Part shown: in pieces, positions 9,200 through 55,485 of the stretch
Layout of the letters: each line of letters opens with the position of its first letter
How positions within the stretch are numbered: position 1 is the stretch's first letter
Origin: an uncultured Dokdonia sp.
GTDB taxonomy: Bacteria; Bacteroidota; Bacteroidia; Flavobacteriales; Flavobacteriaceae
NCBI GenBank assembly: GCA_947503305.1
Contig: CANNDF010000003.1
Span: forward strand, 124,001 to 188,000
Length of the DNA stretch: 64,000 nucleotides
Direction of reading: 5' to 3'
Notes under the pieces: generated by a model
What the model saw: only the letters and a program-made list of their open reading frames with translations
The model's database searches: none
What the model was told of the DNA's origin: nothing
Program-made: the position numbers and the translations under genes

Positions 9200-9811
9200 A
9201 TGAATAAATGGACCCTATTATATACAATCATTTTATATTCAACAATAGTATTAAGTCAAGATTCCCCGCTCGTAAATATTGAGGAATATACTGGAAAATA
9301 TGCTTATGATGTCAAGTACGCTACTGAAGATAATTTTTTAAAGACCGCTGTTTATGATTGTGTACAATGCTTACTACTCCCTGAAGTCGCTCAAGCAATT
9401 TCAGAAGCAAATCATGATTTTTGTGAGCTAGGATATAAAATTCAATTTTATGACTGTTATCGTCCTTTATCTGTGCAAAAAAAAATGTGGGAAATATTCC
9501 CTAATCCATCTTATGTAGGAAATCCTTATAAAAGTGGTTCTATTCATAACAGAGGTGCAGCTATAGATATGACTATAGTAAAACTTGATGGCACGCCCTT
9601 AGATATGGGTAGTGCTTATGATCATTTTGGAAAAGAAGCGCATATGGATCATCCGCATACCGATACTATTGTTGCAAATCGCAAATTACTCTGGGATATT
9701 ATGAAAAAGAATGGATTCTCCCCTATTCGAACAGAATGGTGGCACTTCAATTACGATGCAAAAAACTATGGATTAAAAGTATTGGACATTGATTTTGACT
9801 GTCACAAGTAA
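9200..9811 (+). CDS. D-alanyl-D-alanine dipeptidase, VanX/DdpX type (M15D)
   Basis: A zinc dipeptidase that splits D-Ala-D-Ala. Residues 1-19 are a signal peptide (LLYTIILYSTIVLS-Q), so it works in the periplasm. The zinc ligands and catalytic residues are all visible: Arg88 (CYRPLS), His116 (SIHNRGAAIDM), Asp123, Glu179 and His182 (TEWWHFNY). No vanA/vanH or vanRS is adjacent, so the role is more likely use of wall-derived dipeptide, as for E. coli DdpX, than glycopeptide resistance. Cys54 and Cys57 in YDCVQC form a CxxC pair that could bind metal or form a disulfide. It converges on the metalloprotease gene seven bases downstream. Confidence 0.9.
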   Translation: MNKWTLLYTIILYSTIVLSQDSPLVNIEEYTGKYAYDVKYATEDNFLKTAVYDCVQCLLLPEVAQAISEANHDFCELGYKIQFYDCYRPLSVQKKMWEIFPNPSYVGNPYKSGSIHNRGAAIDMTIVKLDGTPLDMGSAYDHFGKEAHMDHPHTDTIVANRKLLWDIMKKNGFSPIRTEWWHFNYDAKNYGLKVLDIDFDCHK

Positions 9812-9818
9812 TGATCTT

Positions 9819-12320
9819 TTACTTTGGATCTAATAGTAATTCTATTCTCGCAATTGCGTCTTCATAATGATACTTTGTAACTGTATTTACAGAACTGTTC
9901 CTTGCACTTCGCAATGTATTGCGAAGTAGTTTAAGCTCTCCACGTACAATAGAACGAACATCTGATGTGTTGACGTTATATACCAAAGTTCCTTCAAAAC
10001 CTGAACGACCAGATCTGCGTTCTGGTCCATCATTAGTCATAAGATATGCCATTCTATCTAAATAAGAACGTTGCAAATTCCTTCTATAAATATCTACACT
10101 TTCACCTCTAGAGGTTTCTTTCCACAACCCTTTACGAATATCTTTAAACATAGTAATAGCACTATAATAATCTTCATGTACTGTTTCGGCATCTATTAGT
10201 CTTCCGATACGATCAAAACTCAATAGCCTATCCAAATAGCGAGATTGCACACGTCGAATACGTTCAAAATAACCAGCATGATCAATATTTTGTAGTAACT
10301 CTTTATTAACCAACCAAGACTGAGTTTCAAATAAATTATTATGTAACCACTGCATCGATTCTTTTTGAGAGTTTTTATTTACATGACTGTACACAAATCC
10401 CTCTTGATCAGGGTTTTTGATATTTTCAAAAACTCCTCCTATATTGGTTACCACATGTCCAATATACCTTCCATACGTACTGATTAACTCACCGTATAAT
10501 TCTTCAAGATCTTGGTAATTATTGGTTTGATCTGAGGTCCATTTTGGTAAGTTTTGCGCTACATATTTTAAGTTTTTGATTCCGTATGTACTAGCCTTTA
10601 TTGGGTCATCTCCTATACATTCTGTTTGAGACTGAGGATCAAACCTACTAGATTGTCTTCCAAATTTATATACAGGATCATTTGCTTTTTCTAGAATCCA
10701 GCGATTTAATGTTTCTTTTTCTGCCTCTGGTGATGTCACATTGGGTAACCATCGATATCCCCAATTTGTAGCATAATGATCATAAGGCCCCATCTGGCGT
10801 ATAAATCGTATGTTTTGATCTCCGGGTTGTGCTATATAATTATAACGTGCATAATCCATAAGGCTAGCTGCAATACCATTTTTTTGAGTGAATGCTCCAT
10901 CACGATAGGACTCTACTGGATATGCATAGCTAGATGCCATATTATGTGGAAAACCTAATGCATGTCCTACTTCATGGGCAATTACCATACGCATCATTTC
11001 TCCTATTTCTTCTGGAGGTGTCTGTAATGTTCTTGCGCTTGGATTTGCTGCTCCTGTTTCTAACAAATATCGGTTTCTATAACTACGGAGGTGATTGTGA
11101 TACCATATAATATCACTTTCTATAATTTCTCCACTACGAGGGTCTGCAACACTAGGGCCTATTGCATTTCTTGTCGTACTTGCCACATAGCGTACCACAG
11201 AATACCTAATATCTTCGGGACTGAATTCAGGGTCTTCCTTTGGAGAAGGAGCCTCTTTTGCTATGATAGCATTTTTAAATCCTGCTGTTTCAAATGGTTT
11301 TTGCCAGTCTTCTATACCTTGTTTAATATATTTTTTAAGGTTTTCTGGAGTACCAGGGTCTAAATAATATACTATAGGTTTTACAGGATCTACGAGTTCT
11401 CCTCTAGCATATGCTTCTGGATCTTTAGGTTCTAATCGCCAGCGACTAATATATGTCCTTTGATCTGCTTTAAGTTCTTCACTTCCATAATCATATTGAC
11501 TTACAGTAAAAAAACCAACTCTTGGATCAAATACCCTGGGTTGCATGGGTTTTTCTGGTAAAAGAATCATTGATTGATTCATTTGTAAACTTATAGATCC
11601 CAAATCTTTATCCCCAGGAGGTTCGGAAGCTTCGTAGGTGAAATCTTGTTTTACTTCTATGTTTTTTGGAAAACTTTTAATCCCATATATAAAACTACGC
11701 TCGTTATCAAGTTTTTTTACTTTGTATTGCTTACGTAATCTGGAAGATAATCCACTGATGGCTTTTACATCTGACCCAAAAAGCTTAGAAACATTAATTA
11801 CTGCTGCTGTAGAATCCTTATTAAATGCCTTTATATCAAAAGCAAATAATGTAGGCTCATAATTATTTACACGTACTGAATTACTAATCGCCTTTGTACT
11901 ATCTGCAACACTAGTATAGGATTTTATTTTTAGTAAAATTTTATCATGAATACGAACCCAATGGACAACAGACTCATTGGTTTTTGTACCTGCATTAAAA
12001 TAACCACCTCCAAATCCTGATGGAATTTGAGCAATACGACTTACCCATAACATATCTTTCTTAAGATGATCAAAAGGAATTTCGTAAAAGAACTCTTTCT
12101 TTATTTTATGAACTTGAAATAGTCCACTATCGGTTACTGCTTCCTTTGTAATGACATCCGAATATTTTTTGATCCCATTTTTCTCTTTCTTTTCTTTTTC
12201 TTTTACAGGAGTTGTAACCTCTTTTGCATTTGCTTTTTTCTTTTTATTACGACGTTGTGCATATGTATTATCTATAGAAAATAGCGAAATAAAAATGCAT
12301 AAAATGTAAATTCTTTTCAT
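9819..12320 (-). CDS. Secreted zinc-dependent metalloprotease (DUF5117/DUF5118-like)
   Basis: An 833-residue exported protein. A signal peptide (IYILCIFISLFSIDNTYA-Q) is followed by a very basic segment (RRNKKKKANAK) and a Lys/Glu-rich linker. The N-terminal half looks like the DUF5118/DUF5117 domains of this Bacteroidota family. The catalytic site is HEVGHALGFPHNM (about residues 446-458), the extended HExxHxxGxxH zinc motif of metzincins, with the conserved SLMDYARYNYIAQPGD downstream as Met-turn. The last third is helical. Family members are large secreted proteases of unknown substrate. A 106-base gap separates it from the lipoprotein array upstream. Confidence 0.88.
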   Translation of the reverse strand: MKRIYILCIFISLFSIDNTYAQRRNKKKKANAKEVTTPVKEKEKKEKNGIKKYSDVITKEAVTDSGLFQVHKIKKEFFYEIPFDHLKKDMLWVSRIAQIPSGFGGGYFNAGTKTNESVVHWVRIHDKILLKIKSYTSVADSTKAISNSVRVNNYEPTLFAFDIKAFNKDSTAAVINVSKLFGSDVKAISGLSSRLRKQYKVKKLDNERSFIYGIKSFPKNIEVKQDFTYEASEPPGDKDLGSISLQMNQSMILLPEKPMQPRVFDPRVGFFTVSQYDYGSEELKADQRTYISRWRLEPKDPEAYARGELVDPVKPIVYYLDPGTPENLKKYIKQGIEDWQKPFETAGFKNAIIAKEAPSPKEDPEFSPEDIRYSVVRYVASTTRNAIGPSVADPRSGEIIESDIIWYHNHLRSYRNRYLLETGAANPSARTLQTPPEEIGEMMRMVIAHEVGHALGFPHNMASSYAYPVESYRDGAFTQKNGIAASLMDYARYNYIAQPGDQNIRFIRQMGPYDHYATNWGYRWLPNVTSPEAEKETLNRWILEKANDPVYKFGRQSSRFDPQSQTECIGDDPIKASTYGIKNLKYVAQNLPKWTSDQTNNYQDLEELYGELISTYGRYIGHVVTNIGGVFENIKNPDQEGFVYSHVNKNSQKESMQWLHNNLFETQSWLVNKELLQNIDHAGYFERIRRVQSRYLDRLLSFDRIGRLIDAETVHEDYYSAITMFKDIRKGLWKETSRGESVDIYRRNLQRSYLDRMAYLMTNDGPERRSGRSGFEGTLVYNVNTSDVRSIVRGELKLLRNTLRSARNSSVNTVTKYHYEDAIARIELLLDPK

Positions 12321-43786: not shown

Positions 43787-44551
43787 ATGAGCTCAAAAAA
43801 TACATCTGATCGCTTTTTATTTATCATCGGAATTCTTGTTATTGGGTTTTTAGTTTTTCAATTAATAGGTTATTTATTACCTGATAAAGAACCCGTATAT
43901 GATACATTTACATTACTGGAAGAAGTAATGGATCAAAGCGGAGGTAAACAAAACTGGAATGATATCCAAAAAATGTCATATACAAAATCCTTTCAACTTT
44001 ATACAGAAGATGCTGCTATAGAGATAGATAGAAATGAAAAACATTTTTATGATTTTACAAATGGTACAGAAAGAGTCATAGAATGGATGGATAATGATAC
44101 CCTTTTCAGTCTGGTACGCAATGATTCTACTATATATCAAACAAAAAACAACCAAAAAGACACCCTAGTATCTAATAAGGTTTTACAATCAAAACTTGAC
44201 GCTGCAACATTTGTAGTAGGATTACCCTACACTTTGGATAATCCATCGGCATCAAAGTTTTATAAAGGGATTGTATCTTTTCAGGGAGAAAATTGTCATG
44301 TACTTCAAGTACAGTTTGAAGGTTCTGACGATATATGGAAACATTATTACACAGTAGATGATTTGGATTGGAAAGGATACTGGGTAAAAACATCAGATCA
44401 TTATAGCCTTGTAATTAATGAAGAACTGATTAATGTGAATGGGTTTATGCTTTCGCGAAAGCGTAAGAGCTATCGAACTGATTCTCTACAAAACATTACG
44501 TATTTAAGGGCTACTTATGATTATAGCCAGTTTTATATCAACAAACTATGA
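43787..44551 (+). CDS. Membrane-anchored protein, DUF6503-like
   Basis: The ATG at 43787 is preferred over an upstream TTG (43760). One N-terminal hydrophobic helix (RFLFIIGILVIGFLVFQLIGYLL) is an uncleaved anchor or signal. The following 220 residues begin DTFTLLEEVMDQSGGKQNWNDIQKMSYTKSFQLYT, similar in layout to the LolA-like protein at 25311 and to DUF6503 proteins. A palindrome copy encodes MLSRKRK near the C terminus. The stop overlaps the convergent AraC gene by six bases. Function is unknown. Confidence 0.7.
   Translation: MSSKNTSDRFLFIIGILVIGFLVFQLIGYLLPDKEPVYDTFTLLEEVMDQSGGKQNWNDIQKMSYTKSFQLYTEDAAIEIDRNEKHFYDFTNGTERVIEWMDNDTLFSLVRNDSTIYQTKNNQKDTLVSNKVLQSKLDAATFVVGLPYTLDNPSASKFYKGIVSFQGENCHVLQVQFEGSDDIWKHYYTVDDLDWKGYWVKTSDHYSLVINEELINVNGFMLSRKRKSYRTDSLQNITYLRATYDYSQFYINKL
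44449..44462. repeat. Iterated palindrome, exact core, inside a gene
   Basis: GCTTTCGCGAAAGC, in frame, coding LSRKR in the membrane-anchored DUF6503-like protein. Confidence 0.85.
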
Positions 44552-45958
44552 AGCCCCTTCTAATCGCATAAATTGCGATGGTGTCAAGTTACTAAAACGC
44601 TTAAAAGATTTATTAAAGGTTACTTTATTATTGTAGCCTACTTCATAAGCGATATCAATAATATTAAGGTTATCCTTATTATCTTTAAGAAGTTCCATCG
44701 CTTCTTCTACTCTAAACTTATTAATCAATTCAAAAAAGTTAAGTCCAAAATGTTCATTGATTACTTGAGAAGCATTATGCCGTGTAGTACCAAGTCTATT
44801 TGCAATTGTTTCAAGTTTAATTGAGTTTTGACGATACACTTTTTCTTCTTCCATAAGTTTTACTAGTTGCTCTTTGAGTTCATTAGAAAAACTAACTGTA
44901 AGGCCTGAGTTCCTATACTTAGGTGCTCTACTTACTATAGCTTTTGCAGTACCTACTAAAATTTGTGGATTAGAATATGCAATATATCCTATATAAAGTA
45001 CCAGCGAAGTCATTGAGAATAATTGCGCATGGAAAATAGGGCTATTAAAGTCATCATTAATAATAAGAATTCCATATACAGCGTAGGAAATGGCATAAAT
45101 CGCATGGATGGTAATAATGATGCGATGTAAGCGTATCTTTTTAGGAGAGGTTTTAGAGTTTTTCTTTTTATTCTTAATGTATAATCGTAAGGTTAAATAC
45201 CCATATATTAGCAACGATACTAGTTTTATAATAGTAACAGAGTTTTTATAAGGATGTGCAGCATACTCTCCTACTCCCAGCATTACTTGTAACTTTTCTT
45301 CAGAAGATAAGCTATATATAGGCATAAATACAGCAATAAAAATTAAAGTAGGAATTAAATGTAATGCATCAGATCGTTTGAATGTATAATTTTCAGTAAT
45401 CCGTTTAAAATAAAAATATAAAACTGGCCCATACAAAAAAGAAAATAGGGTAGACATGGATAGTGTATGTGGCTCTTGAAAAGTGTAATTTGTCAAATAA
45501 AGGGATATATGAATTAAGAAGAATGAATGCATAAACACAAAAACCCCAATCAATCCATTTGCTACTCGATCAGTACGTTTTCTTATGTTCAGTACAAAAG
45601 CAATAAAAAACCCTATCAATCCAACATATAGATAAAAAAATGTACTCATATTAAATTTGAGCAGGTATTTATCTTTTAGAGCAATAAATCCATCGCTGTG
45701 TTTTATTCCTTCATAAACACTGTTTTCTAAAATTGAAAAGTCCCCAGTTTCAAGTATATAATTACTAAGGTTTAAAACAGCAACATCTGCGTTTCCTTCT
45801 TTTGCAGAAAGAATAGCATCTTTCTCATACTGATCTGCTTTTGAAAGTTGAAAACTTCCTTCTGGCCCTGTCGGATTTACTATTGATGTAACTGCAAACA
45901 TCGAAGTACAGCATAATAGAAATATAAAAACGATGGTGGGGGTTCTAAAAAAATGCAT
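44546..45958 (-). CDS. Membrane-spanning AraC-family regulator (7TM-like)
   Basis: The ATG at 45958 gives a signal peptide (MHFFRTPTIVFIFLLCCTSMFA); the frame is open to 46015. After an exported segment of about 90 residues come seven or so hydrophobic helices (for example TFFYLYVGLIGFFIAFVLNI, LIGVFVFMHSFFLIHISLYL, TLIFIAVFMPIYSL), then a cytoplasmic AraC domain (about 385-470) with VYRQNSIKLETIANRLGTTRHNASQVINEHFGLNF and NIIDIAYEVGYNNKVTFNKSFKRFSNLTPSQF. It may read a signal in the membrane or periplasm and act directly on DNA. The targets are unknown. Confidence 0.88.
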   Translation of the reverse strand: MHFFRTPTIVFIFLLCCTSMFAVTSIVNPTGPEGSFQLSKADQYEKDAILSAKEGNADVAVLNLSNYILETGDFSILENSVYEGIKHSDGFIALKDKYLLKFNMSTFFYLYVGLIGFFIAFVLNIRKRTDRVANGLIGVFVFMHSFFLIHISLYLTNYTFQEPHTLSMSTLFSFLYGPVLYFYFKRITENYTFKRSDALHLIPTLIFIAVFMPIYSLSSEEKLQVMLGVGEYAAHPYKNSVTIIKLVSLLIYGYLTLRLYIKNKKKNSKTSPKKIRLHRIIITIHAIYAISYAVYGILIINDDFNSPIFHAQLFSMTSLVLYIGYIAYSNPQILVGTAKAIVSRAPKYRNSGLTVSFSNELKEQLVKLMEEEKVYRQNSIKLETIANRLGTTRHNASQVINEHFGLNFFELINKFRVEEAMELLKDNKDNLNIIDIAYEVGYNNKVTFNKSFKRFSNLTPSQFMRLEGAS

Positions 45959-46266
45959 ATGGTTTGGATTAACAGTCAACCTAAAGGTACAAAATTGTCG
46001 TGTATATAAAAGCAAATAGGTATACCCCGATAAATGTTTACGTATTAGAACATTAAAATAGAATTCAGTTTAAAAATTAAAAATTAATATAAATAACTAC
46101 TAATCAAATATTTAAAAGGTAACTTTTTGTCGGTTATTTAAATTTTAGAAGTAAAAAAAAGTCGGTAAAAAAATGAAGTAAAACTTATGCTTATTACATC
46201 TATACATCAAAAAATGTGGTAGTATGAATAAAATCCATAACTATTAAGCAATTATAATTATAACAA
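45959..46266. other. Gene-free 308-base AT-rich region
   Basis: It lies between the AraC-type gene and the acyl carrier protein gene, which are both on the minus strand, so it holds the end of the polyketide operon and the promoter of the AraC-type gene. Two GTCGGT motifs occur (46138 and 46161 area). No clear terminator or coding frame was seen. Confidence 0.5.
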
Positions 46267-46512
46267 TTAGTTAAGTTTTAATGCAATTATTTCTAACGCA
46301 TTTGCTACAGTATCCATTTTTTCGATTTCACTATCTTCAATGGTGATATCAAAATGATCTTCTACATCTAATACTATGTCTACTAGATTTGCAGAGTTTA
46401 TATTGAGCTCGTTAATTAAGTGACTATTAGGATTTATGTCATCTATAGTGACATCTGTTGGTAAGTAAATTTTGATCACATTCTTTAATGCCTCATAATG
46501 TTCTGAATTCAT
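46267..46512 (-). CDS. Acyl carrier protein of the type III PKS operon
   Basis: An 81-residue carrier protein that should hold acyl chains on a phosphopantetheine arm. The context LINELNINSANLVDIVLDVEDHFDITIEDSEIEKMDTVANALEII matches helices II and III of acyl carrier proteins. The attachment Ser is Ser40, but the usual DSLD is replaced by NSAN. It is the last gene of the operon, six bases after the ketosynthase. It probably serves the operon enzymes rather than bulk fatty-acid synthesis, since housekeeping AcpP keeps DSLD. Confidence 0.88.
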   Translation of the reverse strand: MNSEHYEALKNVIKIYLPTDVTIDDINPNSHLINELNINSANLVDIVLDVEDHFDITIEDSEIEKMDTVANALEIIALKLN

Positions 46513-46518
46513 ACGGTT

Positions 46519-47802
46519 CTATTCTTTATTTGGTAAATATTTTTTAAACAACATACAACAATTTACATCCCCAAAACCAAAACTAGCTTTAGCAACAATA
46601 TCAACTTCTCTATATAATGTTTTTGAAGGAATCCTTTCTTTATCGACAATATCTAAAATATCTTGATGTATATCATCAGAATTTACATTTCCAAAAATCA
46701 TATTCTGTTCTATTTCTATAATTGCCGCAACACTCTCTATACTGCCAGCAGCAGCTAAGCAATGTCCCGTCATACTTTTAAGAGAATTAATATATGGAAA
46801 CTCTTTTCCAGCGAGCCCTAGTGCAGTACTCCAGTTTTTTATTTCTGTAGGACACATTCCTGTTGCAGTAAGGTGTCCATTAATTGTACTTATCATTTCT
46901 GGTTTAACATATGTATTAGTCAATGCATCTTTTATACAACGTTGAACTGCCTTACTATTAGGCGCTGTCATACTGCCATTTTGCCGTTGCCCGCCACTAT
47001 TTACAGCACCTCCTAATATTTCGGCATAAATATATGCGCCTCGATTTAATGCACTCTCTAAGCTTTCTAACAATAGAGCTCCTGCCCCACTTCCAGGCAC
47101 AAAACCACTTGCATCTGTTTGCATAGGCCTACTACCAGCTTCTGGTTGATAATTATGTTTTTTATTAAGTACTCGCATTGCATCAAAACCTCCCCAAATA
47201 TAGGGCCCAGAATCATTACAGCCTCCTACTAACATACGTTTTGAATACCCATTTGCAATTCGGTCATATCCCATCAAGATACTTTCTGTTCCTGTAGTAC
47301 AAGCGCTTGAATTTGTTGTAACTTGATTTCCTGCACCCAAATACCCTCCTAAATATGCACTTATTCCACTCGCCATTGTCTGAATTACCGTTGTGCTTCC
47401 TAAACGTTTTACTCTCCCTTCATCTGTAAGATAAATAGCCTTCCTGAATTTATCTGCTCCTAGCAATGAGGTTCCAAAAATAATTCCACTATCATAATCG
47501 ACATCGTCTTTACTCATTATAGATAAACCAGCATCTTTCCAAGCATCTACTCCAGCTATCATACCATACATAATTCCAGTCGCGTCCATATCACGAAGTT
47601 GTAATGGTGAAAAATATGTAGATAGCATTTCTTCTGGTATTTTAGGTTGACCCGCTATCTGGCAACCAAAATTAAGATCTGCGAGCTCTTGATGATATCG
47701 GACTCCAGAAATCCCTTTTTTTATTGCCTCTGTAAAATCAGATATGCCTATCCCATTGGGAGCACAAACCCCTAATCCCGTAACAACAACTCTTCGTTTC
47801 AT
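46519..47802 (-). CDS. Beta-ketoacyl-ACP synthase, FabF type
   Basis: It condenses acyl groups with malonyl-ACP. The active site is complete: Cys168 (SSACTTGTES), His310 (NGHLTATG), Lys342 and His347 (KSMTGHCLAAAGS). The start MKRRVVVTGLGVCAPNGIG and the GFGDVNCCMLF end are those of FabF-type enzymes; the length of 427 is normal. It follows the dehydratase by three bases and precedes the carrier protein. In this operon it should extend or prime the acyl chain that feeds the polyketide synthase. Confidence 0.92.
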   Translation of the reverse strand: MKRRVVVTGLGVCAPNGIGISDFTEAIKKGISGVRYHQELADLNFGCQIAGQPKIPEEMLSTYFSPLQLRDMDATGIMYGMIAGVDAWKDAGLSIMSKDDVDYDSGIIFGTSLLGADKFRKAIYLTDEGRVKRLGSTTVIQTMASGISAYLGGYLGAGNQVTTNSSACTTGTESILMGYDRIANGYSKRMLVGGCNDSGPYIWGGFDAMRVLNKKHNYQPEAGSRPMQTDASGFVPGSGAGALLLESLESALNRGAYIYAEILGGAVNSGGQRQNGSMTAPNSKAVQRCIKDALTNTYVKPEMISTINGHLTATGMCPTEIKNWSTALGLAGKEFPYINSLKSMTGHCLAAAGSIESVAAIIEIEQNMIFGNVNSDDIHQDILDIVDKERIPSKTLYREVDIVAKASFGFGDVNCCMLFKKYLPNKE

Positions 47803-47805
47803 ATA

Positions 47806-48240
47806 TTATATTGAAAACATCCCTGATAATGTTCCTTCGCTTGCTACATCTCCATTTTCGTTTGTCAATGTAACATTACACTTTAACTTATTAAACCTAA
47901 AATACTCTATATCGGATACTACAGTTACTTTTTCTCCAGGAAACACTGGCTTTATATAATCTGTTGTAGCATTTGTAAATGCAACCTTTAATCCTTTCAG
48001 TTTTTCTAAATCGTTGATCAAATAAATACCTAAGCACACCAATCCTATTTGTGCCATACATTCTGTAAGAATAACTCCTGGTGTTACTGGATATTCTTTA
48101 AAATGCCCCTTATAAAAAAAAGACTCTTTCTGAAATGTATATACACCCTCTACGCCCCTATTATTTATACGTATAATCTCATCTACAAAAAGAAAAGGTT
48201 CTTTATATGGCAACAACGATATGATTTCTTCACCACTCAT
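47806..48240 (-). CDS. 3-hydroxyacyl-ACP dehydratase-like hotdog protein
   Basis: A 144-residue single hotdog domain. The FabZ-like segment FFYKGHFKEYPVTPGVILTECMAQIG contains the catalytic His and, in helix, Glu in the usual positions (H-x-x-x-x-x-x-P-G then E-x-M-A-Q). LLPYKEPFLFVDEI at the N terminus is also typical. It would dehydrate 3-hydroxyacyl-ACP. The start overlaps the reductase stop by four bases, showing translational coupling. Confidence 0.88.
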   Translation of the reverse strand: MSGEEIISLLPYKEPFLFVDEIIRINNRGVEGVYTFQKESFFYKGHFKEYPVTPGVILTECMAQIGLVCLGIYLINDLEKLKGLKVAFTNATTDYIKPVFPGEKVTVVSDIEYFRFNKLKCNVTLTNENGDVASEGTLSGMFSI

Positions 48241-49043
48241 CGTATATGTTCTCCTCCATCTACAGGTAGTACAACTCCGTTAATCCATGAGGCTTCATCT
48301 CTGCATAATAGATATACCGCGTTTGCAACATCTTTGGGTACTGTCAAACGATGATATGGATTCCTTTTAAGAGTGGTTGTTTTCATTTGATCACTACCAG
48401 GTATTAATCGTAGACTCTCTGTATCTGTAACTCCAGCTTGTATACAATTTGCTTTAATACATAGTGGCGCAAATTCTAGCGCGATACTTCTTACAATACT
48501 CTCTAATGCAGCTTTAGCTGCGGCTACTGCGCCATACTGATGCCATGCTCTTGTACTTCCTTCGCTAGTAAATACAAGGACTCTGGAATCTTTTGAAAAT
48601 AATCCAGCGTTGGCAATAGAAACAACCCAATCATATACACTTATTGCCATAGCATCAATAGTCAATTTAAAATCATCGTTATTAAGTGTTCTATCATTAT
48701 CTTCACTATAAAGAGGTTTTAAGTTTCCTCTGGCAATACTATGTACTACCACTTTTACTTGTCCCTTGCCTAATTTTTTTAAAAGATCGTTTATAACATT
48801 TTTCCTCTTTTCTGGATGAATAGCATCTGTATTATATGTAAGCACTTGTACTTTATTTGATTTCATAATGGCAACTTCATCCTCAAAAGTAGTCAATACA
48901 CTTCGTCTACTTCTATGAAGTATACATATGTGCATCCCTTCTGAAGCTAGTTTTTTTGCTGTAGCGAGACCTAAGCCACTACTACCCCCTAAAATAATAG
49001 CCCATTTACCAATATAATCTTGTACTTTATTCATTGTTACCAT
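48237..49043 (-). CDS. FabL-like enoyl-ACP reductase (short-chain dehydrogenase fold)
   Basis: A 268-residue NAD(P)H-dependent reductase. The nucleotide loop is GGSSGLGLA (19-27). The active site is Tyr170-x6-Lys177 (YGAVAAAK), the spacing of enoyl reductases FabI/FabL, not the Tyr-x3-Lys of ketoreductases. KAALESIVRSIALEFAPLCIKANCIQAGVTDTESLRLIPG resembles Bacillus FabL. An ATG at 49034 would remove a seven-base overlap with the polyketide synthase gene. It should reduce the enoyl chain made by the dehydratase next to it. Confidence 0.85.
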   Translation of the reverse strand: MVTMNKVQDYIGKWAIILGGSSGLGLATAKKLASEGMHICILHRSRRSVLTTFEDEVAIMKSNKVQVLTYNTDAIHPEKRKNVINDLLKKLGKGQVKVVVHSIARGNLKPLYSEDNDRTLNNDDFKLTIDAMAISVYDWVVSIANAGLFSKDSRVLVFTSEGSTRAWHQYGAVAAAKAALESIVRSIALEFAPLCIKANCIQAGVTDTESLRLIPGSDQMKTTTLKRNPYHRLTVPKDVANAVYLLCRDEASWINGVVLPVDGGEHIR

Positions 49044-50089
49044 TTGAGTAAAACACGTTGTGCAGAAAATCCAGGACCAAAACTCAACATAATGCCTAAA
49101 TCGCCTTTTGGGAGTCTTTTATCCATAAATCTTTCTAAAACATACAGTACAGTCGCACTACTCATATTTCCATAAAGACGTAATACTTCCTTTGTATCAT
49201 CTATATTCTTTCCTAATTTCCCAAAGAGTTCTTCCACAGTCTCAATAATTTTACGCCCTCCTGGATGAAAAATTAAGTGATCAATTTGATCTATTATTAG
49301 ATTATTTTTCTTTAAGAATGGATGTATAATATCTGGAAACTGACTAGCAATTGTTTCTGGAACTTGTTGGTCCAATATCATTTGTAATCCTGTATTTACG
49401 AGTTTAAAGCCCATCATATGCTGTGCATCATAAAAATGATACATTTCTGTATCAATTATCTCTACACCTTGATCTTCTTCATGTGAAGATAATAAAACAC
49501 AAGCAGCTCCATCACCAAATATAGCCGCACTTACGATATTAACCATAGAAAAATCTGAATGCTGAAAAGTAGCTGTTGGACTTTCAATAGCAATAACTGC
49601 AGCTCGTTTCCCAGGGTTTGCTTTAAGAAATTCATTTGCATATACAACCCCAGAAACTCCAGCGGCACAACCCATTTCTGTAACTGGCAACCTTACAATA
49701 TCTTGCCGTAGGTTTAATGCATTGATCAAATATGCATCTAGGGACGGGATCATAATTCCTGTGCAACTCACTGTTATTATAAAATCTAATGTTTGAGGTT
49801 CCCAGTTTGCTTTCGCAAAAGCGTTATTTAAAACTTGTTTTCCAAGAGTAACAACTTCTCTAGTGTAAATGTCATTTTTTTCTTCAAAACTTGTTGCCGT
49901 AAAAACTTCTTCTGGAGACATAATACTATAACGTTTGTCTACAGCCGCATTACCAAATATTTTTTTTACTTTTCGTTTAAAACGATCATCTTGATCATAA
50001 AGCCAACTGTCTAAAAACGGTAGTATTTCATCCGTAGATCTATGATATTTTGGTAATTGTTTTGCTACAGTAGCAATTTTTACGTTCAT
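49037..50089 (-). CDS. Type III polyketide synthase (chalcone/alkylresorcinol synthase family)
   Basis: A homodimeric ketosynthase that extends a starter with malonyl-CoA and cyclises it. The catalytic triad is complete: Cys141 (TEMGCAAGVSG), His275 (IFHPGGRKI) and Asn308 (YGNMSSATV), with the family spacing. FGDGAACVLLSS and LSFGPGFSAQRVLLKW are also diagnostic. The 350-residue length is normal. Neighbouring fatty-acid enzymes suggest a fatty acyl starter, giving an alkylresorcinol, alkylpyrone or similar. A palindrome variant encodes NAFAKAN. It overlaps the methyltransferase stop by four bases. Confidence 0.95.
   Translation of the reverse strand: MNVKIATVAKQLPKYHRSTDEILPFLDSWLYDQDDRFKRKVKKIFGNAAVDKRYSIMSPEEVFTATSFEEKNDIYTREVVTLGKQVLNNAFAKANWEPQTLDFIITVSCTGIMIPSLDAYLINALNLRQDIVRLPVTEMGCAAGVSGVVYANEFLKANPGKRAAVIAIESPTATFQHSDFSMVNIVSAAIFGDGAACVLLSSHEEDQGVEIIDTEMYHFYDAQHMMGFKLVNTGLQMILDQQVPETIASQFPDIIHPFLKKNNLIIDQIDHLIFHPGGRKIIETVEELFGKLGKNIDDTKEVLRLYGNMSSATVLYVLERFMDKRLPKGDLGIMLSFGPGFSAQRVLLKW
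49809..49822. repeat. Iterated palindrome (one mismatch) inside the type III PKS gene
   Basis: GCTTTCGCAAAAGC, in frame, coding AFAKA within a variable helix. Confidence 0.65.
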
Positions 50090-50799
50090 ACAGTTTTAAT
50101 TAACCACAAATATCGAAACGCCCATTTCCATGTTACTTTAGAAGTTTTGAGTTTCAATTTTTTTGCAAATGTTTCTAATTCATGTTTTTTAAATGCGCTA
50201 GCTATAGATACAAGTCCGTCATTTTTTGCAACATAGCTCCTTATAAAAATACGACTAAAAAGCATATAGAGTACATATGCTACTCGGCTTCTATGTAAGT
50301 CGTTTATAATGATGCCAACTTTCGTGAAAAGTGTGAACTGTTTTATAAACTTAAGAATCTCCTCATCTGTAAAATGATGTATTGTTAATGTACATATTAC
50401 TATATCACATGTAAATGAATTAACATCGATCATCATAACATCTTTTTTTATAAAAGATATCTCTGGATAGTTCTTAGACATTGATCTGGCTATATCTATA
50501 CTTTGAGAGTTGATATCTAACCCTATTAGATTTAACTCAAGATCGTCATCCTTACATTTATCCACAATAAGTCGTAGCATCTCTCCATCACCACAACCTA
50601 TATCTACAATAGTCCATTTTCTTTTTTTAGAATTTTCTTTAAATAGTTTTTCTATAGCTCTTATCGTAATCAAATTACCGCCGAGCATTCTATTTACTTT
50701 AGAAATATCTAAAAGTGCATCTTTAAGAGCCTTTTCTGGAACGTTTGGGTCATCCATAAGCTCTATCTCTGTACTACGATTCCGTAAATTTCTCATCAT
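50086..50799 (-). CDS. Class I SAM-dependent methyltransferase of the PKS operon
   Basis: A 237-residue Rossmann methyltransferase. Motif I is IVDIGCGDGEML, motif II LIGLDINSQSI, and the ICTLTIHHFTDEE stretch is common in small-molecule O- or C-methyltransferases. A C-terminal hydrophobic part (VAYVLYMLFSRIFI, WAFRYLWLIKTV) could bind a lipid or the membrane. It sits between an FAD oxidoreductase and the type III synthase, with four-base overlaps on each side. By analogy with alkylresorcinol-modifying methyltransferases, it probably methylates the polyketide product. The substrate is inferred. Confidence 0.85.
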   Translation of the reverse strand: MMRNLRNRSTEIELMDDPNVPEKALKDALLDISKVNRMLGGNLITIRAIEKLFKENSKKRKWTIVDIGCGDGEMLRLIVDKCKDDDLELNLIGLDINSQSIDIARSMSKNYPEISFIKKDVMMIDVNSFTCDIVICTLTIHHFTDEEILKFIKQFTLFTKVGIIINDLHRSRVAYVLYMLFSRIFIRSYVAKNDGLVSIASAFKKHELETFAKKLKLKTSKVTWKWAFRYLWLIKTV

Positions 50800-51914
50800 A
50801 TAGCACTTCCATGTGTTGATTGTATGATTCTTTGTAAAAGATATGGGGATTTACTAATTATTGCTACCCCAGCACGTGTAAGGCTTTTATATTGTAATGC
50901 ATTTTGAATCCACCAACCAGCTTTTAATCGTTTTTGAAATGCAGCATTCCATTGTTTTTTATACCTGTCTTCTAATTCTAATCGAGGTCTCTTTTCTGAT
51001 CGTTGCTCTATCAATAATATAGATATAATTTTTGCACTATGAATTGCCATAGCCATACCATTACCGCATAATGGATGTATTAAACCTGCACTATCTCCTA
51101 TCATAAAAATATGGTTTTCAATAGGGGCTTTTTTTTCAAAAGATATCTGACTTATAGTTAAAGGTTTTTCAAAAACGATTTCACTTTCTTTAAAAAAAGA
51201 ACGTAATGCATTGTTCCTACAAAGAACTTCTGTCTGGTAATTTTCTACATTCTTATACTTTTTAAAAGACTTATAATCTGCCAAATAACATACATTTACA
51301 TAATCCGTTTCTACTTTTGACAATCCGCAATATCCGCCACTAAAATTATGTAAAGCAACAAGATTATTAGGAAATGGAGCTTTATAATGTGCTTTAACAC
51401 CTAGCCAAGGTGACTTTTGTTGTATAAACTTTCGCGAAAGCTTAATATCCATACCACTCCGTTTTCCATAAGCCCCTAAAACATACGTAGACACAAAAGA
51501 ATCTCCTTTTGCCGTTGTGATTTCAAAATGATCTTTTATAAATGAAACATTATTTACAGTTGCTTGAAGAATAGTCACTCCTAACAATAAGGCTCTATCG
51601 ACCATAAGCTTGTCCAAGGTATATCTACTGATACCAAAACCTCCTAAGGGTAATGCAACATTTAATACCACGTCAGACAATCCTGAGAATTGGAATCTAT
51701 CTATCTTTTTTGCTCCTTTTTCAAAAGGGAAAATACCAAGTGTTTCTAAATAGGGCAATACCTCATTAGATACATATTCGCCACATACTTTATGTTTTGG
51801 AAATGTATTCTTCTCTATAAGCACTATTTCAAAACCTTCTTGAGCAAGATGTATAGCACTGGTCAAACCAGCCAGACCTCCGCCAATAATCAAAATTGAA
51901 ACTTCCTTATTCAC
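50796..51914 (-). CDS. FAD-dependent oxidoreductase, geranylgeranyl-reductase/monooxygenase family
   Basis: A flavoprotein of about 372 residues. The FAD fold is ILIIGGGLAGLTSAIHLAQEGFEIVLIEK, followed by KHKVCGEYVSNEV (typical of the geranylgeranyl-reductase-like group) and MIGDSAGLIHPLCGNGMAMAIHSAKI. I chose the GTG at 51914 because it begins right before the FAD fold; the frame is open from a TTG at 51932, which lies in the terminator of ompA. It is first in the operon. It likely hydroxylates or reduces the polyketide lipid, as SrsC-type flavoproteins do after type III synthases in Streptomyces. A palindrome variant codes LSRKF. Confidence 0.88.
   Translation of the reverse strand: MNKEVSILIIGGGLAGLTSAIHLAQEGFEIVLIEKNTFPKHKVCGEYVSNEVLPYLETLGIFPFEKGAKKIDRFQFSGLSDVVLNVALPLGGFGISRYTLDKLMVDRALLLGVTILQATVNNVSFIKDHFEITTAKGDSFVSTYVLGAYGKRSGMDIKLSRKFIQQKSPWLGVKAHYKAPFPNNLVALHNFSGGYCGLSKVETDYVNVCYLADYKSFKKYKNVENYQTEVLCRNNALRSFFKESEIVFEKPLTISQISFEKKAPIENHIFMIGDSAGLIHPLCGNGMAMAIHSAKIISILLIEQRSEKRPRLELEDRYKKQWNAAFQKRLKAGWWIQNALQYKSLTRAGVAIISKSPYLLQRIIQSTHGSAI
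51426..51443. repeat. Iterated palindrome (one mismatch) inside the FAD oxidoreductase gene
   Basis: ACTTTCGCGAAAGC, in frame, coding LSRKF. Confidence 0.7.
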
Positions 51915-51933: not shown

Positions 51934-51966
51934 AAAAAAATCCTTAGAAAAAATTCTAAGGATTTT
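51934..51966 (-). terminator. Rho-independent terminator after the OmpA gene
   Basis: AAAATCCTTAGAA pairs with TTCTAAGGATTTT (13 base pairs, loop AAAA); on the minus strand it ends in seven T. It lies 20 bases before the PKS operon start codon, so the operon needs either its own promoter or leaky read-through from the OmpA gene. Confidence 0.9.
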
Positions 51967-51991: not shown

Positions 51992-52690
51992 CTATTTACC
52001 TCCCGATTCTTTAATGGCTTCTTGTTTCATGGTTTCGTTAGGAACAATCGCAAGACTTACTCTTCTGTTTTGAGCTCTTCCTGCGGCTGTATTATTATCT
52101 CCTATAGGCTGTGTTTCTCCATACCATACCGTGGTAAAACGCCCTCCAGATACGCCTTTACTCACTAAGTAATTTGTAACAGCGTTTGCTCTGTTTTCTG
52201 ATAATGTCAAATTATAAGAATCTGGCCCTGAACTATCGGTATGACCTGCAACAATAATATTTGTCTCATTGTATTCCTTCATCACATTTGCCATTCTAGT
52301 AAGCAACTCTTGTGATGCACTATTAATGTTATACTTATTTGTGTCAAAATAGACTCCAGAATTTTCATCAAAAGTGACTACAATCCCATCATCGATACGC
52401 TCAACTTTTGCTCCAGGAATTTCTTCTTCAATTTTCTGAGCTTGTTTATCCATTTTTGCTCCTATAAGTACTCCAGCTCCTCCACCTAGAACACCTCCTA
52501 TAACAGCTCCTAGCTCTCCATTACCACCTTTACCAACATTATTACCTATAACAGCGCCTAATATGGCTCCACCTGCTGCACCAATAACAGCTCCTTTTTG
52601 TTTATTATTTGCATTTTTTGTGGCTTCACAACCTATTAGCATCATTCCTGCTATAAAGAGTAATACCCCATTTCTTAGTATCATTTTCAT
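51992..52690 (-). CDS. OmpA-family lipoprotein with glycine zipper (YiaD-like)
   Basis: A 232-residue outer-membrane lipoprotein. The lipobox ends at Cys21 (MMLIGC). A glycine-zipper segment (GAVIGAAGGAILGAVIGNNVG to VLIGAKMD, about 33-80) is followed by an OmpA peptidoglycan-binding domain (about 105-222) with YFDTNKYNI, VAGHTDSSGPDSYNLTLSENRANAV and AQNRRVSLAI, including the Asp and Arg that contact diaminopimelate. It probably links outer membrane and wall. It follows the lipocalin gene by 19 bases and ends in a strong terminator. Confidence 0.92.
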   Translation of the reverse strand: MKMILRNGVLLFIAGMMLIGCEATKNANNKQKGAVIGAAGGAILGAVIGNNVGKGGNGELGAVIGGVLGGGAGVLIGAKMDKQAQKIEEEIPGAKVERIDDGIVVTFDENSGVYFDTNKYNINSASQELLTRMANVMKEYNETNIIVAGHTDSSGPDSYNLTLSENRANAVTNYLVSKGVSGGRFTTVWYGETQPIGDNNTAAGRAQNRRVSLAIVPNETMKQEAIKESGGK

Positions 52691-52709
52691 AATGAATATA
52701 TTTAATTTG

Positions 52710-53189
52710 TTATTCTGATGTTTTTGTAAAATTCATAGAGATTGTAAATGGACTCCCATCTACTTGCACAGTTTGATTTATCTGTAAATCGGTATCAGAC
52801 AAATATGAAAGCTGTAATCTAAACCCTTGATTTGTTACTGATTTAAGTTTTTCATTGGTAGGTTTTAAAAGAATGTCATAATTAGTATCGCTACCATTAT
52901 TGTTTGGAATACTCCAGATAAAATAACGTTTACCTGTAGTACAATCACTTGATGTAACATCATAATTACCCGAATTATTATTTGGAATAAATCGCCATGT
53001 ACTACCTGCAAGACATTCTGAACTTACATCATTAAATAGAGTTACATTGTATTCACCAGCTTCACTATAGGAAATATTATTAAGTGTCCAATACCCTTTT
53101 AAAGTCTTCTTAGAGGTCTGTATGACATTGCTTGTTCCGCAAGAAATTAAAGGCAAACTTGCAAGAAATAGAATAAATAGTCTTTTCAT
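52710..53189 (-). CDS. Lipocalin-like lipoprotein
   Basis: A 159-residue lipoprotein, lipobox Cys17 (LPLISC). The KGYWTLNNISYSEAGEYNVTLFND start and the CLAGSTWRFIPNNNSGNYDVT motif are those of lipocalin-like proteins of Flavobacteria, which form a small beta barrel. Two cysteines (CLAG, DCTTG) could pair. It is the first gene of the pair with the OmpA lipoprotein. The ligand is unknown. About 290 gene-free bases lie upstream. Confidence 0.82.
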   Translation of the reverse strand: MKRLFILFLASLPLISCGTSNVIQTSKKTLKGYWTLNNISYSEAGEYNVTLFNDVSSECLAGSTWRFIPNNNSGNYDVTSSDCTTGKRYFIWSIPNNNGSDTNYDILLKPTNEKLKSVTNQGFRLQLSYLSDTDLQINQTVQVDGSPFTISMNFTKTSE

Positions 53190-53478
53190 GTTTTATGATT
53201 TTCTTTGTTAAATATATGATGGTTTTTAGTCATGACATAAACAAGTAAAATAGCTGTCTCATTTCCTATCAAAATTGCATTTTATCCAGATTTTGTATAC
53301 ATATGTCGTAATTATATGCCTAAAACAAGGTGTGATTATTTTTAATACAAAGTGATAGTACACAAGTAAAAAAATTACTTCTTATGATTTACAAAAGATA
53401 CGCTATAAATGCCAGAAAAGATGTCATATAGATAAATTTCAAATGATTATCTATTAAAAAACTTGTGAATGTCTTCGA

Positions 53479-55485
53479 TTAGTATGCTATCAATTCTTTA
53501 AGTATTAGTGAAAGCCTTTTTTTAGAAAGATAGAGTTCTTCCAGTTGCCCTGCAAAAGGGATTGGCGTATCTAAGCTTGTTACTCTTCGTATAGGGGCAT
53601 CTAAATATTCAAAGCATTCTTCAGTAATCATTGCAGAAATATCAGACATAATACTACCAAATCCAGAGTCTTCCGTTAGCAATAAAACCTTACCAGTTTT
53701 CTTAACAGAATTAAAAATGGCATCTACATCTAAGGGTTGTAGTGTACGTAAATCAATAAGGTCTATAGCTATGTCTGAATGTTCTTCAATTAAACTTAGT
53801 GACCAATGTACACCTGCGCCATACGTAATGATTGTAATATCTGTTCCTTCACTTAATATAGCTGCTTTCCCAAGAGGAAGCGTATAATAGTCTGTAGGCA
53901 CTTCTTGACGAATACTTCGATACAAGGCTTTATGTTCAAAAAACAATACAGGATTTGGGTCAACTATTGCTGTAGCTAGTAATCCTTTTGCATCGTAAGG
54001 AAAAGCAGGATATACCACTTTGAGTCCAGGAGTATGTGTAAACCAGGCTTCGTTAGTTTGTGAATGATAAGGGCCTGCTCCTACACCAGCTCCACAAGGC
54101 ATTCTCACAACCACATCTGCAGCTTGTGCCCATCTATAATGGGATTTTGCAAGATAGTTTACAATAGGATTAAAACCAGAAGTTGCAAAATCTGCAAACT
54201 GCATTTCCATTACGGCTTTCTTACCATTTATAGCAAGTCCCATTGCAGCCTCTACAATAGCACTCTCACATATTGGAGTATTACGTACACGATCTTTACC
54301 AAACTGATCTATAAATCCATCTGTGATTTTAAAAACTCCGCCATACTCAGCAATATCTTGCCCCATAATTACAATCGAATCATCATGTTCCATTGCTTGT
54401 CGTAAGCTATCAGAAATGGCATCTATTAAGCGTATTTCTTCTTTCGTATCATTGGGGAGTATTTCATTATAATCATAAGAGGCATATACATCAGATAATT
54501 CTATATCCATATTCGGGATAATTGCTTCTTCGTTATATGCTATAGACAGGTGATCATTAATTTCATCTTTTATACCTATCTCCATTTCATTATGGAGTGC
54601 ATCTGTAAGAATACCTTCTCCTATTAAATAGTTTTTATAATTTAAGATAGGATCTTTCTTTGCCCATAAATCCATAAGGTCTTTAGGCACATATTTAGTA
54701 CCACTAGCCTCTTCATGCCCGCGCATCCTAAAAGTTTTAAACTCTATTAGAACTGGTCTGGGGTTCTTTCGGATATCTGCTGTTAGCTTTTGAATAGTTG
54801 TATAGGTTTCAAGAATATTATTTCCATCGAGAATATGACTCTCCATTCCATATCCCAAAGCTCTATCTGCAAGATTTTTACAATTATATTGTTCTGTAGT
54901 TGGCGTAGATAAACCATACCCATTATTCTCAATGCAAAATAGGACAGGTAATTGCCATACTGATGCAACATTAAGTGCTTCATGAAAATCACCTTCACTT
55001 GTCCCTCCTTCACCTGTAAAGACAGCAGTTACTGCTTCTTCTTTTCTTAATTTATGTGCAAGAGCAATTCCATCTGCAACTCCTAGTTGTGGGCCCAAAT
55101 GTGAGATCATCCCCACAATATTATATTCTTGAGTGCCAAAATGGAAACTACGATCTCTACCTTTTGTAAATCCACTTGCTTTACCCTGCCATTGTGCAAA
55201 AAGTCTGTAAAGAGGTATCTCTCTTGTCGTAAACACGCCTAAATTGCGATGCATAGGCAATATATACTCTTCATCAAGCATTGCAGAAGTTACGCCTACA
55301 GATATTGCTTCCTGTCCAATTCCAGAAAACCATTTTGAAATTTTCCCCTGACGGAGTAAAATAAGCATTTTCTCTTCTATTAATCGAGGTTTAAGCATTG
55401 CCTTATATAACTGTAAAAGCTGAGTATCACTTAAGTCTTTTCGATCGTAATCAATATGTATATCAAGATTTGTTGCTGTAGCCAT
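53479..55485 (-). CDS. 2-oxoacid dehydrogenase E1, fused alpha and beta subunits
   Basis: One 668-residue chain. The first half (about 15-330) is an E1 alpha subunit with thiamine-diphosphate motif AVFTGEGGTSEGDFHEALN ending in ENNGYGLSTP and RMRGHEEASG. The second half (about 345-668) is an E1 beta subunit: IVMGQDIAEYGGVFKIT, NTPICESAIVEAAMGLAINGKKAVMEMQFADF and HSQTNEAWFTHTPGLKVVYP. It decarboxylates a branched-chain or related 2-oxoacid in a complex with E2 and E3, which are not in this window. Fused E1 is usual in Flavobacteria. The likely promoter is a TACATTTG element just upstream. Confidence 0.93.
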   Translation of the reverse strand: MATATNLDIHIDYDRKDLSDTQLLQLYKAMLKPRLIEEKMLILLRQGKISKWFSGIGQEAISVGVTSAMLDEEYILPMHRNLGVFTTREIPLYRLFAQWQGKASGFTKGRDRSFHFGTQEYNIVGMISHLGPQLGVADGIALAHKLRKEEAVTAVFTGEGGTSEGDFHEALNVASVWQLPVLFCIENNGYGLSTPTTEQYNCKNLADRALGYGMESHILDGNNILETYTTIQKLTADIRKNPRPVLIEFKTFRMRGHEEASGTKYVPKDLMDLWAKKDPILNYKNYLIGEGILTDALHNEMEIGIKDEINDHLSIAYNEEAIIPNMDIELSDVYASYDYNEILPNDTKEEIRLIDAISDSLRQAMEHDDSIVIMGQDIAEYGGVFKITDGFIDQFGKDRVRNTPICESAIVEAAMGLAINGKKAVMEMQFADFATSGFNPIVNYLAKSHYRWAQAADVVVRMPCGAGVGAGPYHSQTNEAWFTHTPGLKVVYPAFPYDAKGLLATAIVDPNPVLFFEHKALYRSIRQEVPTDYYTLPLGKAAILSEGTDITIITYGAGVHWSLSLIEEHSDIAIDLIDLRTLQPLDVDAIFNSVKKTGKVLLLTEDSGFGSIMSDISAMITEECFEYLDAPIRRVTSLDTPIPFAGQLEELYLSKKRLSLILKELIAY

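Follow-up and report, generated by a model that had tools for sequence, protein, structure and literature searches.

What primes a type III polyketide synthase (PKS) whose gene is embedded among genes for fatty acid synthesis? The question is raised by a seven-gene operon of an uncultured Dokdonia sp., which runs from position 51914 to position 46267 on the minus strand of the 64,000-nucleotide stretch analysed here (the window; positions 124,001 to 188,000 of contig CANNDF010000003.1, assembly GCA_947503305.1), and encodes in this order a flavin adenine dinucleotide (FAD)-dependent oxidoreductase, a methyltransferase (MT), the PKS, a short-chain reductase (SDR), a FabZ-like dehydratase, a ketosynthase (KS) and an acyl carrier protein (ACP). 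The original prediction, made from the letters of the window, held that the operon makes its own fatty starter on the spot and that the resulting ring is then methylated and oxidised. We consider it fairly probable, from the comparisons of genes and proteins described below, that a discrete type II acyl-ACP module supplies the type III synthase and that the product is then methylated and oxidised. The genes are:

50796 to 51914, minus strand: FAD-dependent oxidoreductase of the group A flavin monooxygenase / halogenase / geranylgeranyl-reductase superfamily (PF01494, 45.2 bits against a cut-off of 22)
50086 to 50799, minus strand: class I S-adenosylmethionine (SAM)-dependent methyltransferase, like NCBIfam PRK06202 (PF13649, 52.3 bits against 27)
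49037 to 50089, minus strand: type III polyketide synthase with Cys141, His275 and Asn308 (PF00195 and PF02797 above cut-off)
48237 to 49043, minus strand: FabL-like short-chain reductase with Tyr170-x6-Lys177 (best NCBIfam family FabL, 143.1 bits against 328; best solved relative FabL, 3oic)
47806 to 48240, minus strand: FabZ-like 3-hydroxyacyl-ACP dehydratase with His46 and Glu60 (PF07977, 48.5 bits against 23)
46519 to 47802, minus strand: FabF/FabB-like beta-ketoacyl-ACP synthase with Cys168, His310, Lys342 and His347 (PF00109 and PF02801 above cut-off)
46267 to 46512, minus strand: acyl carrier protein, phosphopantetheine site Ser40 in an N-S-A motif (PF00550, 27.5 bits against 20.8)

Reading frames and Pfam matches agree with the coordinates and families first given for the seven minus-strand genes, the cut-offs being exceeded for FAD_binding_3, Methyltransf_25, Chal_sti_synt (N and C), adh_short_C2, FabA-like, ketoacyl-synt (N and C) and PP-binding. 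The spacings between neighbours, from the FAD gene to the ACP gene, are −4, −4, −7, −4, +3 and +6 bases. The two forms described for the PKS/SDR junction, a seven-base overlap or a two-base gap, are both available, the second ATG of the SDR lying at 49034, and the FAD gene starts at either GTG 51914 or TTG 51932. The catalytic residues of the operon proteins are intact, with each residue kept in 99% or more of the aligned sequences (alignments of 28 to 81 rows), including the Cys141, His275 and Asn308 of the synthase and the Tyr-x6-Lys of the SDR that had been read in the sequence (Tyr170 and Lys177 in 28/28 rows). The discrete fatty acid module is intact in the C-H-K-H of the KS, the H-E of the dehydratase and the serine of the ACP (Ser40 in at least 99% of 67 rows).

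That these genes belong together is seen most clearly in other genomes. Three sets were compared: a genus, family and order sample of 59 genomes, a scan of named genomes in which 496 stretches encode a relative of the synthase and the best 80 were kept as loci, and a phylum sample of 395 genomes. The kept loci come from Dokdonia, Flavobacterium, Aequorivita, Leeuwenhoekiella, Chitinophaga, Kaistella, Winogradskyella, Aquimarina, Frigoriflavimonas, a Saprospiraceae metagenome-assembled genome (MAG) and others. FAD, MT and PKS genes are present in 80/80, FabZ and KS in 75/80 and ACP in 74/80, and those present lie colinearly on a single strand in all 80; the comparison of gene order that had been proposed as a check thus excludes chance. 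Six loci lack the full core, being either truncated by a contig end (L034, L062) or split (L037 and three from Leeuwenhoekiella). The gene set is not peculiar to this strain and constitutes a common Bacteroidota operon family. One Flavobacterium MAG (L104, approximately 9639 to 10986) has its KS in two tblastn pieces of 71 and 349 residues, an assembly frameshift or a broken gene.

The host genome (4.26 Mb, 57 contigs) has a single match to the Pfam model of the C-terminal type III synthase domain, and the nearest named relatives by synthase sequence are Dokdonia. Orthologues of the synthase (at least 79% identity over the aligned part) occur in 17/17 other genomes of the genus and in 8/18 from the rest of the family; of 23 genomes from other families of the order, two have no match, and the best match among the others reaches E 6e-20. 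Across the phylum sample, 168/395 genomes have a synthase match at E 1e-30 or better, and a sharp clade of 33 genomes stands apart at 67 to 100% identity, the next match by E-value being at 36% and the remainder at no more than 37% among the matches listed. A KS at 57% identity or more occurs in 33/395 genomes, exactly the 33 of the synthase clade, and lies in each within 3 kb of the synthase by coordinates; in five more genomes the KS match is at 44 to 50%. A synthase found in 17/17 congeners and conserved at no less than 67% identity across the clade argues for a compound with a fixed role. The synthase also changes much more slowly than the other operon proteins (median identity to the window proteins outside Dokdonia 77% for PKS, 62% for KS, 53% for FAD and 42% for MT). 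A search of plasmids gave 177 records, all below 60% identity, the best among the matches listed being 35%.

There are four genomes (three Leeuwenhoekiella and one Dokdonia MAG) in which FAD-MT-PKS stands without an adjoining KS and the KS module lies elsewhere as a unit: FabZ-KS-ACP in the three Leeuwenhoekiella, the SDR still beside the PKS, and SDR-FabZ-KS-ACP in the Dokdonia MAG. Loss of the module from these genomes was considered and rejected, since it is found elsewhere in each. Two distinct break points, with neither half lost, argue for shared function rather than mere linkage, and this retention, together with the 33/33 co-occurrence of KS and PKS, bears out the tie between acyl supply and synthase that had been proposed.

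The halves are also found with other partners. In two genomes (G155, G446) an SDR-FabZ-KS-ACP-PPTase-like cassette, in the order of the operon and ending in a gene like that for a phosphopantetheinyl transferase (PPTase), stands divergently beside a gene for DarB (634.8 and 614.7 bits against an NCBIfam cut-off of 550); DarG (197.8 against 170) and DarH (453.7 against 300) are above cut-off in the G155 locus. The DarA-like neighbours of DarB in loci L197 and L199 match no Pfam or NCBIfam family, and we claim no DarA; the PPTase-like gene of L197 matches no NCBIfam family and scores 49 bits with a custom profile (63 in L199). In three more genomes (G134, G183 and G103, loci L201, L203 and L205) the cassette lies beside homologous GNAT-like and GT2-like genes, the former confirmed by Pfam in G134 and the latter in G183, with the SDR present in G134 alone of the three, no PPTase, and no adjacent ring synthase within the stretch fetched. 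Conversely, G446 has a PKS-MT-FAD set without the second half, and G134 and G183 have sets whose FAD gene is of another family; beside two other Bacteroidota synthases (L198, L210) an isoprenylcysteine-type methyltransferase (ICMT) gene is found instead. As the halves occur apart elsewhere, the operon of the window joins two modules, FAD-MT-PKS and SDR-FabZ-KS-ACP(-PPTase).

The type III synthase itself points to a lipid starter. Its Pfam scores are 72.1 and 67.9 bits (Chal_sti_synt N and C, cut-off 27), and its closest solved relatives by sequence profile are Pks11 (193 bits), THNS (169), CylI (160), an Ectocarpus enzyme (142) and Steely1 (137), with plant enzymes at 135 or below. The predicted fold (mean pLDDT 86.6) gives the same two lipid-type enzymes: Pks11 at Z 43.1 (2.0 Å over 342 residues) and CylI, whose structures include acyl and resorcinol ligands, at Z 41.9 (2.1 Å over 344 residues), plant enzymes reaching at most Z 37.9. 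Because the nearest relatives are of the lipid type, a lipid starter is favoured over a phloroglucinol- or chalcone-type enzyme, the outcome that would have spoken against the original prediction. Among NCBIfam models the best is DpgA (NF042429), but at 172.6 bits it is below its cut-off of 425. At the position of a tryptophan of Pks11 the synthase has Phe228, which is kept in its clade, and CylI has a leucine; this tryptophan is needed for resorcinol formation in ArsB and is reported in FtpA, SrsA, PKS10 and PKS11 (PMC5916927, PMC6274091; here and below, papers cited by number are represented by excerpts of their text).

The genes for acyl supply are less uniform. Enoyl-ACP reductases such as FabI and FabL carry Tyr-x6-Lys instead of the Tyr-x3-Lys of FabG, and the SDR, with the former motif and with FabL (NF005975) as the best of 214 families, yet below cut-off, is likely an enoyl-ACP reductase. 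It was also considered as the absent ketoreductase and rejected in that role, as it scores 92.7 bits with FabG (cut-off 297.75) and has Tyr-x6-Lys rather than Tyr-x3-Lys. No ketoreductase or malonyl transferase is found by Pfam among the seven operon genes, as had been noted for the ketoreductase, and the one FabG above cut-off (341.4 against 297.75) lies elsewhere in the genome. The FabZ-like protein scores 66.4 bits against the NCBIfam FabZ cut-off of 113. In a tree of ketosynthases, the cassette KS stand apart from the clade that holds the genome's other, housekeeping-like FabF (100/100). The five cassette KS from outside the PKS clade group at 81/72, and two rows of the tree (L195, L191) have very long branches; with this low support and the long branches we claim neither a direction of transfer nor an older context.

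Two components vary over the family. A PPTase gene is present in 57/80 loci, following the ACP in 47/47 Flavobacterium and 5/5 Chitinophaga loci and occurring in 0/10 Dokdonia or Dokdonia-like loci; in both examples tested it is above the Pfam ACPS cut-off. The only PPTase of the host genome by Pfam sits on another contig, and was rejected as a cassette-type enzyme (best blastp E 0.002 over 65 residues). The SDR, which had been presented as part of the set, is indeed present in the window with its Tyr-x6-Lys, and in 9/10 Dokdonia or Dokdonia-like loci (a split one counted, the tenth ending at a contig end), but it is optional in the family (27/80 loci), being absent from 47/47 Flavobacterium loci and from the Aquimarina locus. 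The chain therefore need not be saturated across the family, and in the window strain, given the presence of the SDR here and in Dokdonia loci, it is probably reduced.

Similar reductases are also found outside the operon family. At E 1e-50, 89 genomes of the phylum sample have an SDR match, one in each; setting aside the 13 of the clade and the two with a dar-side cassette leaves 74, whose SDRs are 36 to 44% identical to that of the operon. Nine of these (L235 to L243) have Tyr-x6-Lys in 9/9, four lie near large DNA-polymerase-like and thioredoxin-like genes (by eye), and the best NCBIfam family of one is FabL, below cut-off. They may be housekeeping enoyl reductases of those lineages.

For the two tailoring enzymes the class is clearer than the reaction. 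The MT matches class I SAM enzymes, ICMT being absent among its nine Pfam families; it scores 137.4 bits with PRK06202, below the cut-off of 243, and a profile search of the PDB gave general class I enzymes, with no hint of C- versus O-methylation. It likely methylates the polyketide product. The predicted fold of the flavoprotein (mean pLDDT 85.1) most resembles those of flavin halogenases (Z 36.3 to 34.5), followed by aromatic hydroxylases and squalene epoxidase (Z approximately 33 to 34), and P39, H41-K42-V43-C44-G45-E46-Y47 and G273-D274 are conserved in 81 rows. Flavin-dependent halogenases have a conserved catalytic lysine. Between residues 43 and 150 of the flavoprotein no lysine is conserved in 99% of the 81 rows, the halogenase lysine not being mapped residue by residue, and for want of such a lysine a halogenase is unlikely; the enzyme likely oxidises the ring.

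On this basis we infer the following pathway, including its reactions, the transfer from ACP to synthase, chain length, ring type and product. The KS would lengthen an acyl chain bound to the ACP that the operon itself encodes; dehydration by the FabZ-like enzyme and reduction of the enoyl bond by the Tyr-x6-Lys SDR would follow, with malonyl transferase, FabG and PPTase borrowed from housekeeping. The type III synthase would then receive the acyl group, most likely straight from the ACP, add approximately three malonyl units and close an alkylresorcinol or alkylpyrone ring, which the MT and flavoprotein would methylate and hydroxylate or oxidise, giving a methylated phenolic lipid or quinone.

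Several observations weigh against this pathway. The operon has no ketoreductase, no malonyl transferase and, in the window, no PPTase. At E 1e-50 the SDR is found in 13/33 clade genomes and is not found in 20/33. The third setting of the cassette, beside GNAT-like and GT2-like genes in three genomes, shows that ring synthases are not its only partners. Phe228, at the position of the resorcinol-associated tryptophan, leaves resorcinol formation not assured. Finally, planctomycetal type III synthases are active in Corynebacterium, where they have no supply module of their own (PMC10896814).

Of the alternatives, the one that survives best is compatible with acyl supply by the module: the product may be an alkylpyrone rather than a phenol, with the flavoprotein acting on the pyrone or on the side chain. 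This is possible, if rather unlikely. Pks11, the best solved relative, makes methyl-branched alkylpyrones by the title of its entry, and a phenylalanine replaces the tryptophan; against this, CylI, whose entry title gives a resorcinol product in the structure, is also without the tryptophan, Pks11 is itself listed among alkylresorcinol formers (PMC5916927), and the predicted flavoprotein fold, that of aromatic hydroxylases and halogenases, would better suit a phenol. With CylI lacking the tryptophan and Pks11 listed as an alkylresorcinol former, neither ring marker is firm, and with phenylalanine here, leucine in CylI and tryptophan in Pks11 the ring may be a resorcinol, a pyrone or a quinone.

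Somewhat less probable, and in our view doubtful, is a polyenyl, aryl-polyene-like version of the same supply pathway, in which KS, dehydratase and a borrowed FabG would make a conjugated polyene or enoyl chain for the synthase to cap with a ring, the SDR, where present, removing at least one double bond and the lineages without it making the polyene. A dedicated KS and dehydratase would seem needless for an ordinary saturated chain, and besides the Flavobacterium and Aquimarina loci without SDR, a search of eight whole genomes (seven Flavobacterium, one Aquimarina) at E 1e-20 gave only two matches, at 33% and 32%. However, a housekeeping enoyl reductase could act in Flavobacterium, the window and nearly all Dokdonia or Dokdonia-like loci do carry an SDR with the enoyl-reductase motif, and the operon, with no ketoreductase and a single KS, is unlike aryl polyene clusters. 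A published Aequorivita cluster with a related synthase was labelled 'T3pks-arylpolyene' by antiSMASH, with data not shown and no product given (PMC6139392), which fits a polyenyl chain; the cluster possibly belongs to the same operon family, as 6/6 Aequorivita loci compared here, the published strain's locus not being among them, hold all seven genes in order.

It is improbable that the synthase uses housekeeping acyl-CoA or acyl-ACP while KS-FabZ-ACP makes a second acyl group of its own, which might for instance be attached to the phenol afterwards: FAD-MT-PKS without an adjoining KS in three Leeuwenhoekiella and one Dokdonia MAG, the module with other partners in five genomes and the planctomycetal synthases at work in Corynebacterium without a private module would be consistent with it, but the split genomes retain the module elsewhere, the co-occurrence is 33/33, and there is no acyltransferase among the operon genes.

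Supply of the synthase by the module can be set against several known systems. Picocyanobacteria, the producers of hierridins, and planctomycetes have MT-FAD-type III PKS operons (PMC10896814); in Corynebacterium the planctomycetal synthases make pentadecyl- and heptadecylresorcinols, and co-expression of the Gimesia MT and oxidoreductase adds a methyl group, probably on carbon, the role of the oxidoreductase being unknown according to the same source. The hidABC and planctomycetal operons share with the window an MT, an FAD oxidoreductase and a type III PKS in one operon, a lipid starter and methylation of the product (PMC10896814, PMC8086630), and the window genes for these three proteins are likewise adjacent on one strand. 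They differ in that the order in the window is FAD-MT-PKS, followed by SDR, FabZ, KS and ACP, and the likeness is one of gene make-up.

A starter carried by ACP is also not without parallel. A C14 acyl-ACP is the proposed starter of HidC (PMC8086630), and acyl-ACP is accepted by germicidin synthase, by SCO7671, and by ArsB and ArsC, which are fed by a type I fatty acid synthase (FAS; PMC6274091). In the Ars system of Azotobacter the FAS (ArsA) hands ACP-bound acyl chains to the type III ArsB and ArsC (PMC6274091), as proposed here for the window; however, ArsA is a multidomain type I enzyme, in contrast to the separate type II proteins of the window with their MT and flavoprotein, and the ArsB tryptophan is a phenylalanine in the window. 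Streptomyces SrsABC, which the original prediction took as its analogue, does combine a type III synthase, an MT and a flavoprotein monooxygenase, so that the kinds of enzyme agree. It is not the best analogue, and membership of the Srs type was rejected, because SrsB is an isoprenylcysteine-type MT (PMC6669644) and the MT of the window a class I SAM enzyme; nor is a fatty acid module described in the excerpt of that source. The hierridin-type and planctomycetal operons are closer. The flexirubin and dar clusters share the SDR-FabZ-KS-ACP-PPTase-like cassette, found beside darB in two genomes, but their ring former, DarB, is a KAS III relative, and Dar-type membership was rejected, since the synthase of the window scores 22.3 bits against the DarB cut-off of 550 (NF053539).

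Type III synthase clusters make up 9% of the predicted Flavobacteriaceae clusters in one survey (PMC7440613) and 10.74% in another (PMC10734526). The original prediction knew of no characterised Bacteroidota product of this exact gene set, and in the open literature, most subscription journals being outside this scope, we found no product of the operon family either; what it offered on Bacteroidota were these cluster counts and the remark on the Aequorivita cluster, and the excerpt of PMC3098273 holds nothing on the operon. As far as found, the family is thus uncharacterised.

Taken together, these observations allow a wider view, which we put forward tentatively and think less likely than not: a portable SDR-FabZ-KS-ACP-PPTase cassette may have been plugged into two unrelated Bacteroidota ring formers, the DarB type and the type III PKS, with loss or gain of the reductase switching between saturated and polyenyl phenolic lipids, and the compound class may be a membrane lipid or pigment, not seen so far, that is core to Dokdonia and widespread in Flavobacterium and Chitinophaga. 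If so, in the type III case acyl groups would be handed on from a discrete type II module to the synthase, and we know of no characterised relay of this kind. Type III pathways to phenolic lipids that have their own acyl supply are already known; the interest lies in the modular build and in the natural reductase-plus and reductase-minus versions, and the operon is suited to testing starter transfer from a dedicated discrete carrier.

The surroundings of the operon add some minor observations. Approximately 250 bases past the ACP gene lies an AraC-type regulator gene (Pfam HTH_18; 44546 to 46015, minus strand), possibly a regulator of the operon; as an eighth member it was rejected, the clusters of neighbouring genes having it in 6/80 loci, all of them Dokdonia or Dokdonia-like. 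On the other side, just ahead of the FAD gene, is one further element:

51934 to 51963, minus strand: terminator-like hairpin with a T-run, between the OmpA-like gene and the FAD gene (perfect 12-base arms, found by script)

The hairpin stops approximately 20 bases ahead of the GTG of the FAD gene, and may terminate the upstream OmpA-like transcript or serve as a leader element. With a strict perfect-arm script a hairpin upstream of FAD is found in the window and in 5/25 related loci, a weak result, the anchor being approximate. Further upstream (51992 to 55485, minus strand) lie OmpA-like and lipocalin-like genes, named by eye, which were rejected as members of the operon, since relatives occur in 15/80 loci and in 0/47 Flavobacterium loci; a two-part dehydrogenase E1 gene is found in 16/80 loci. 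The OmpA-like, lipocalin-like and E1 genes precede the operon in Dokdonia, Aequorivita, Leeuwenhoekiella and others, and form a fixed genome neighbourhood.

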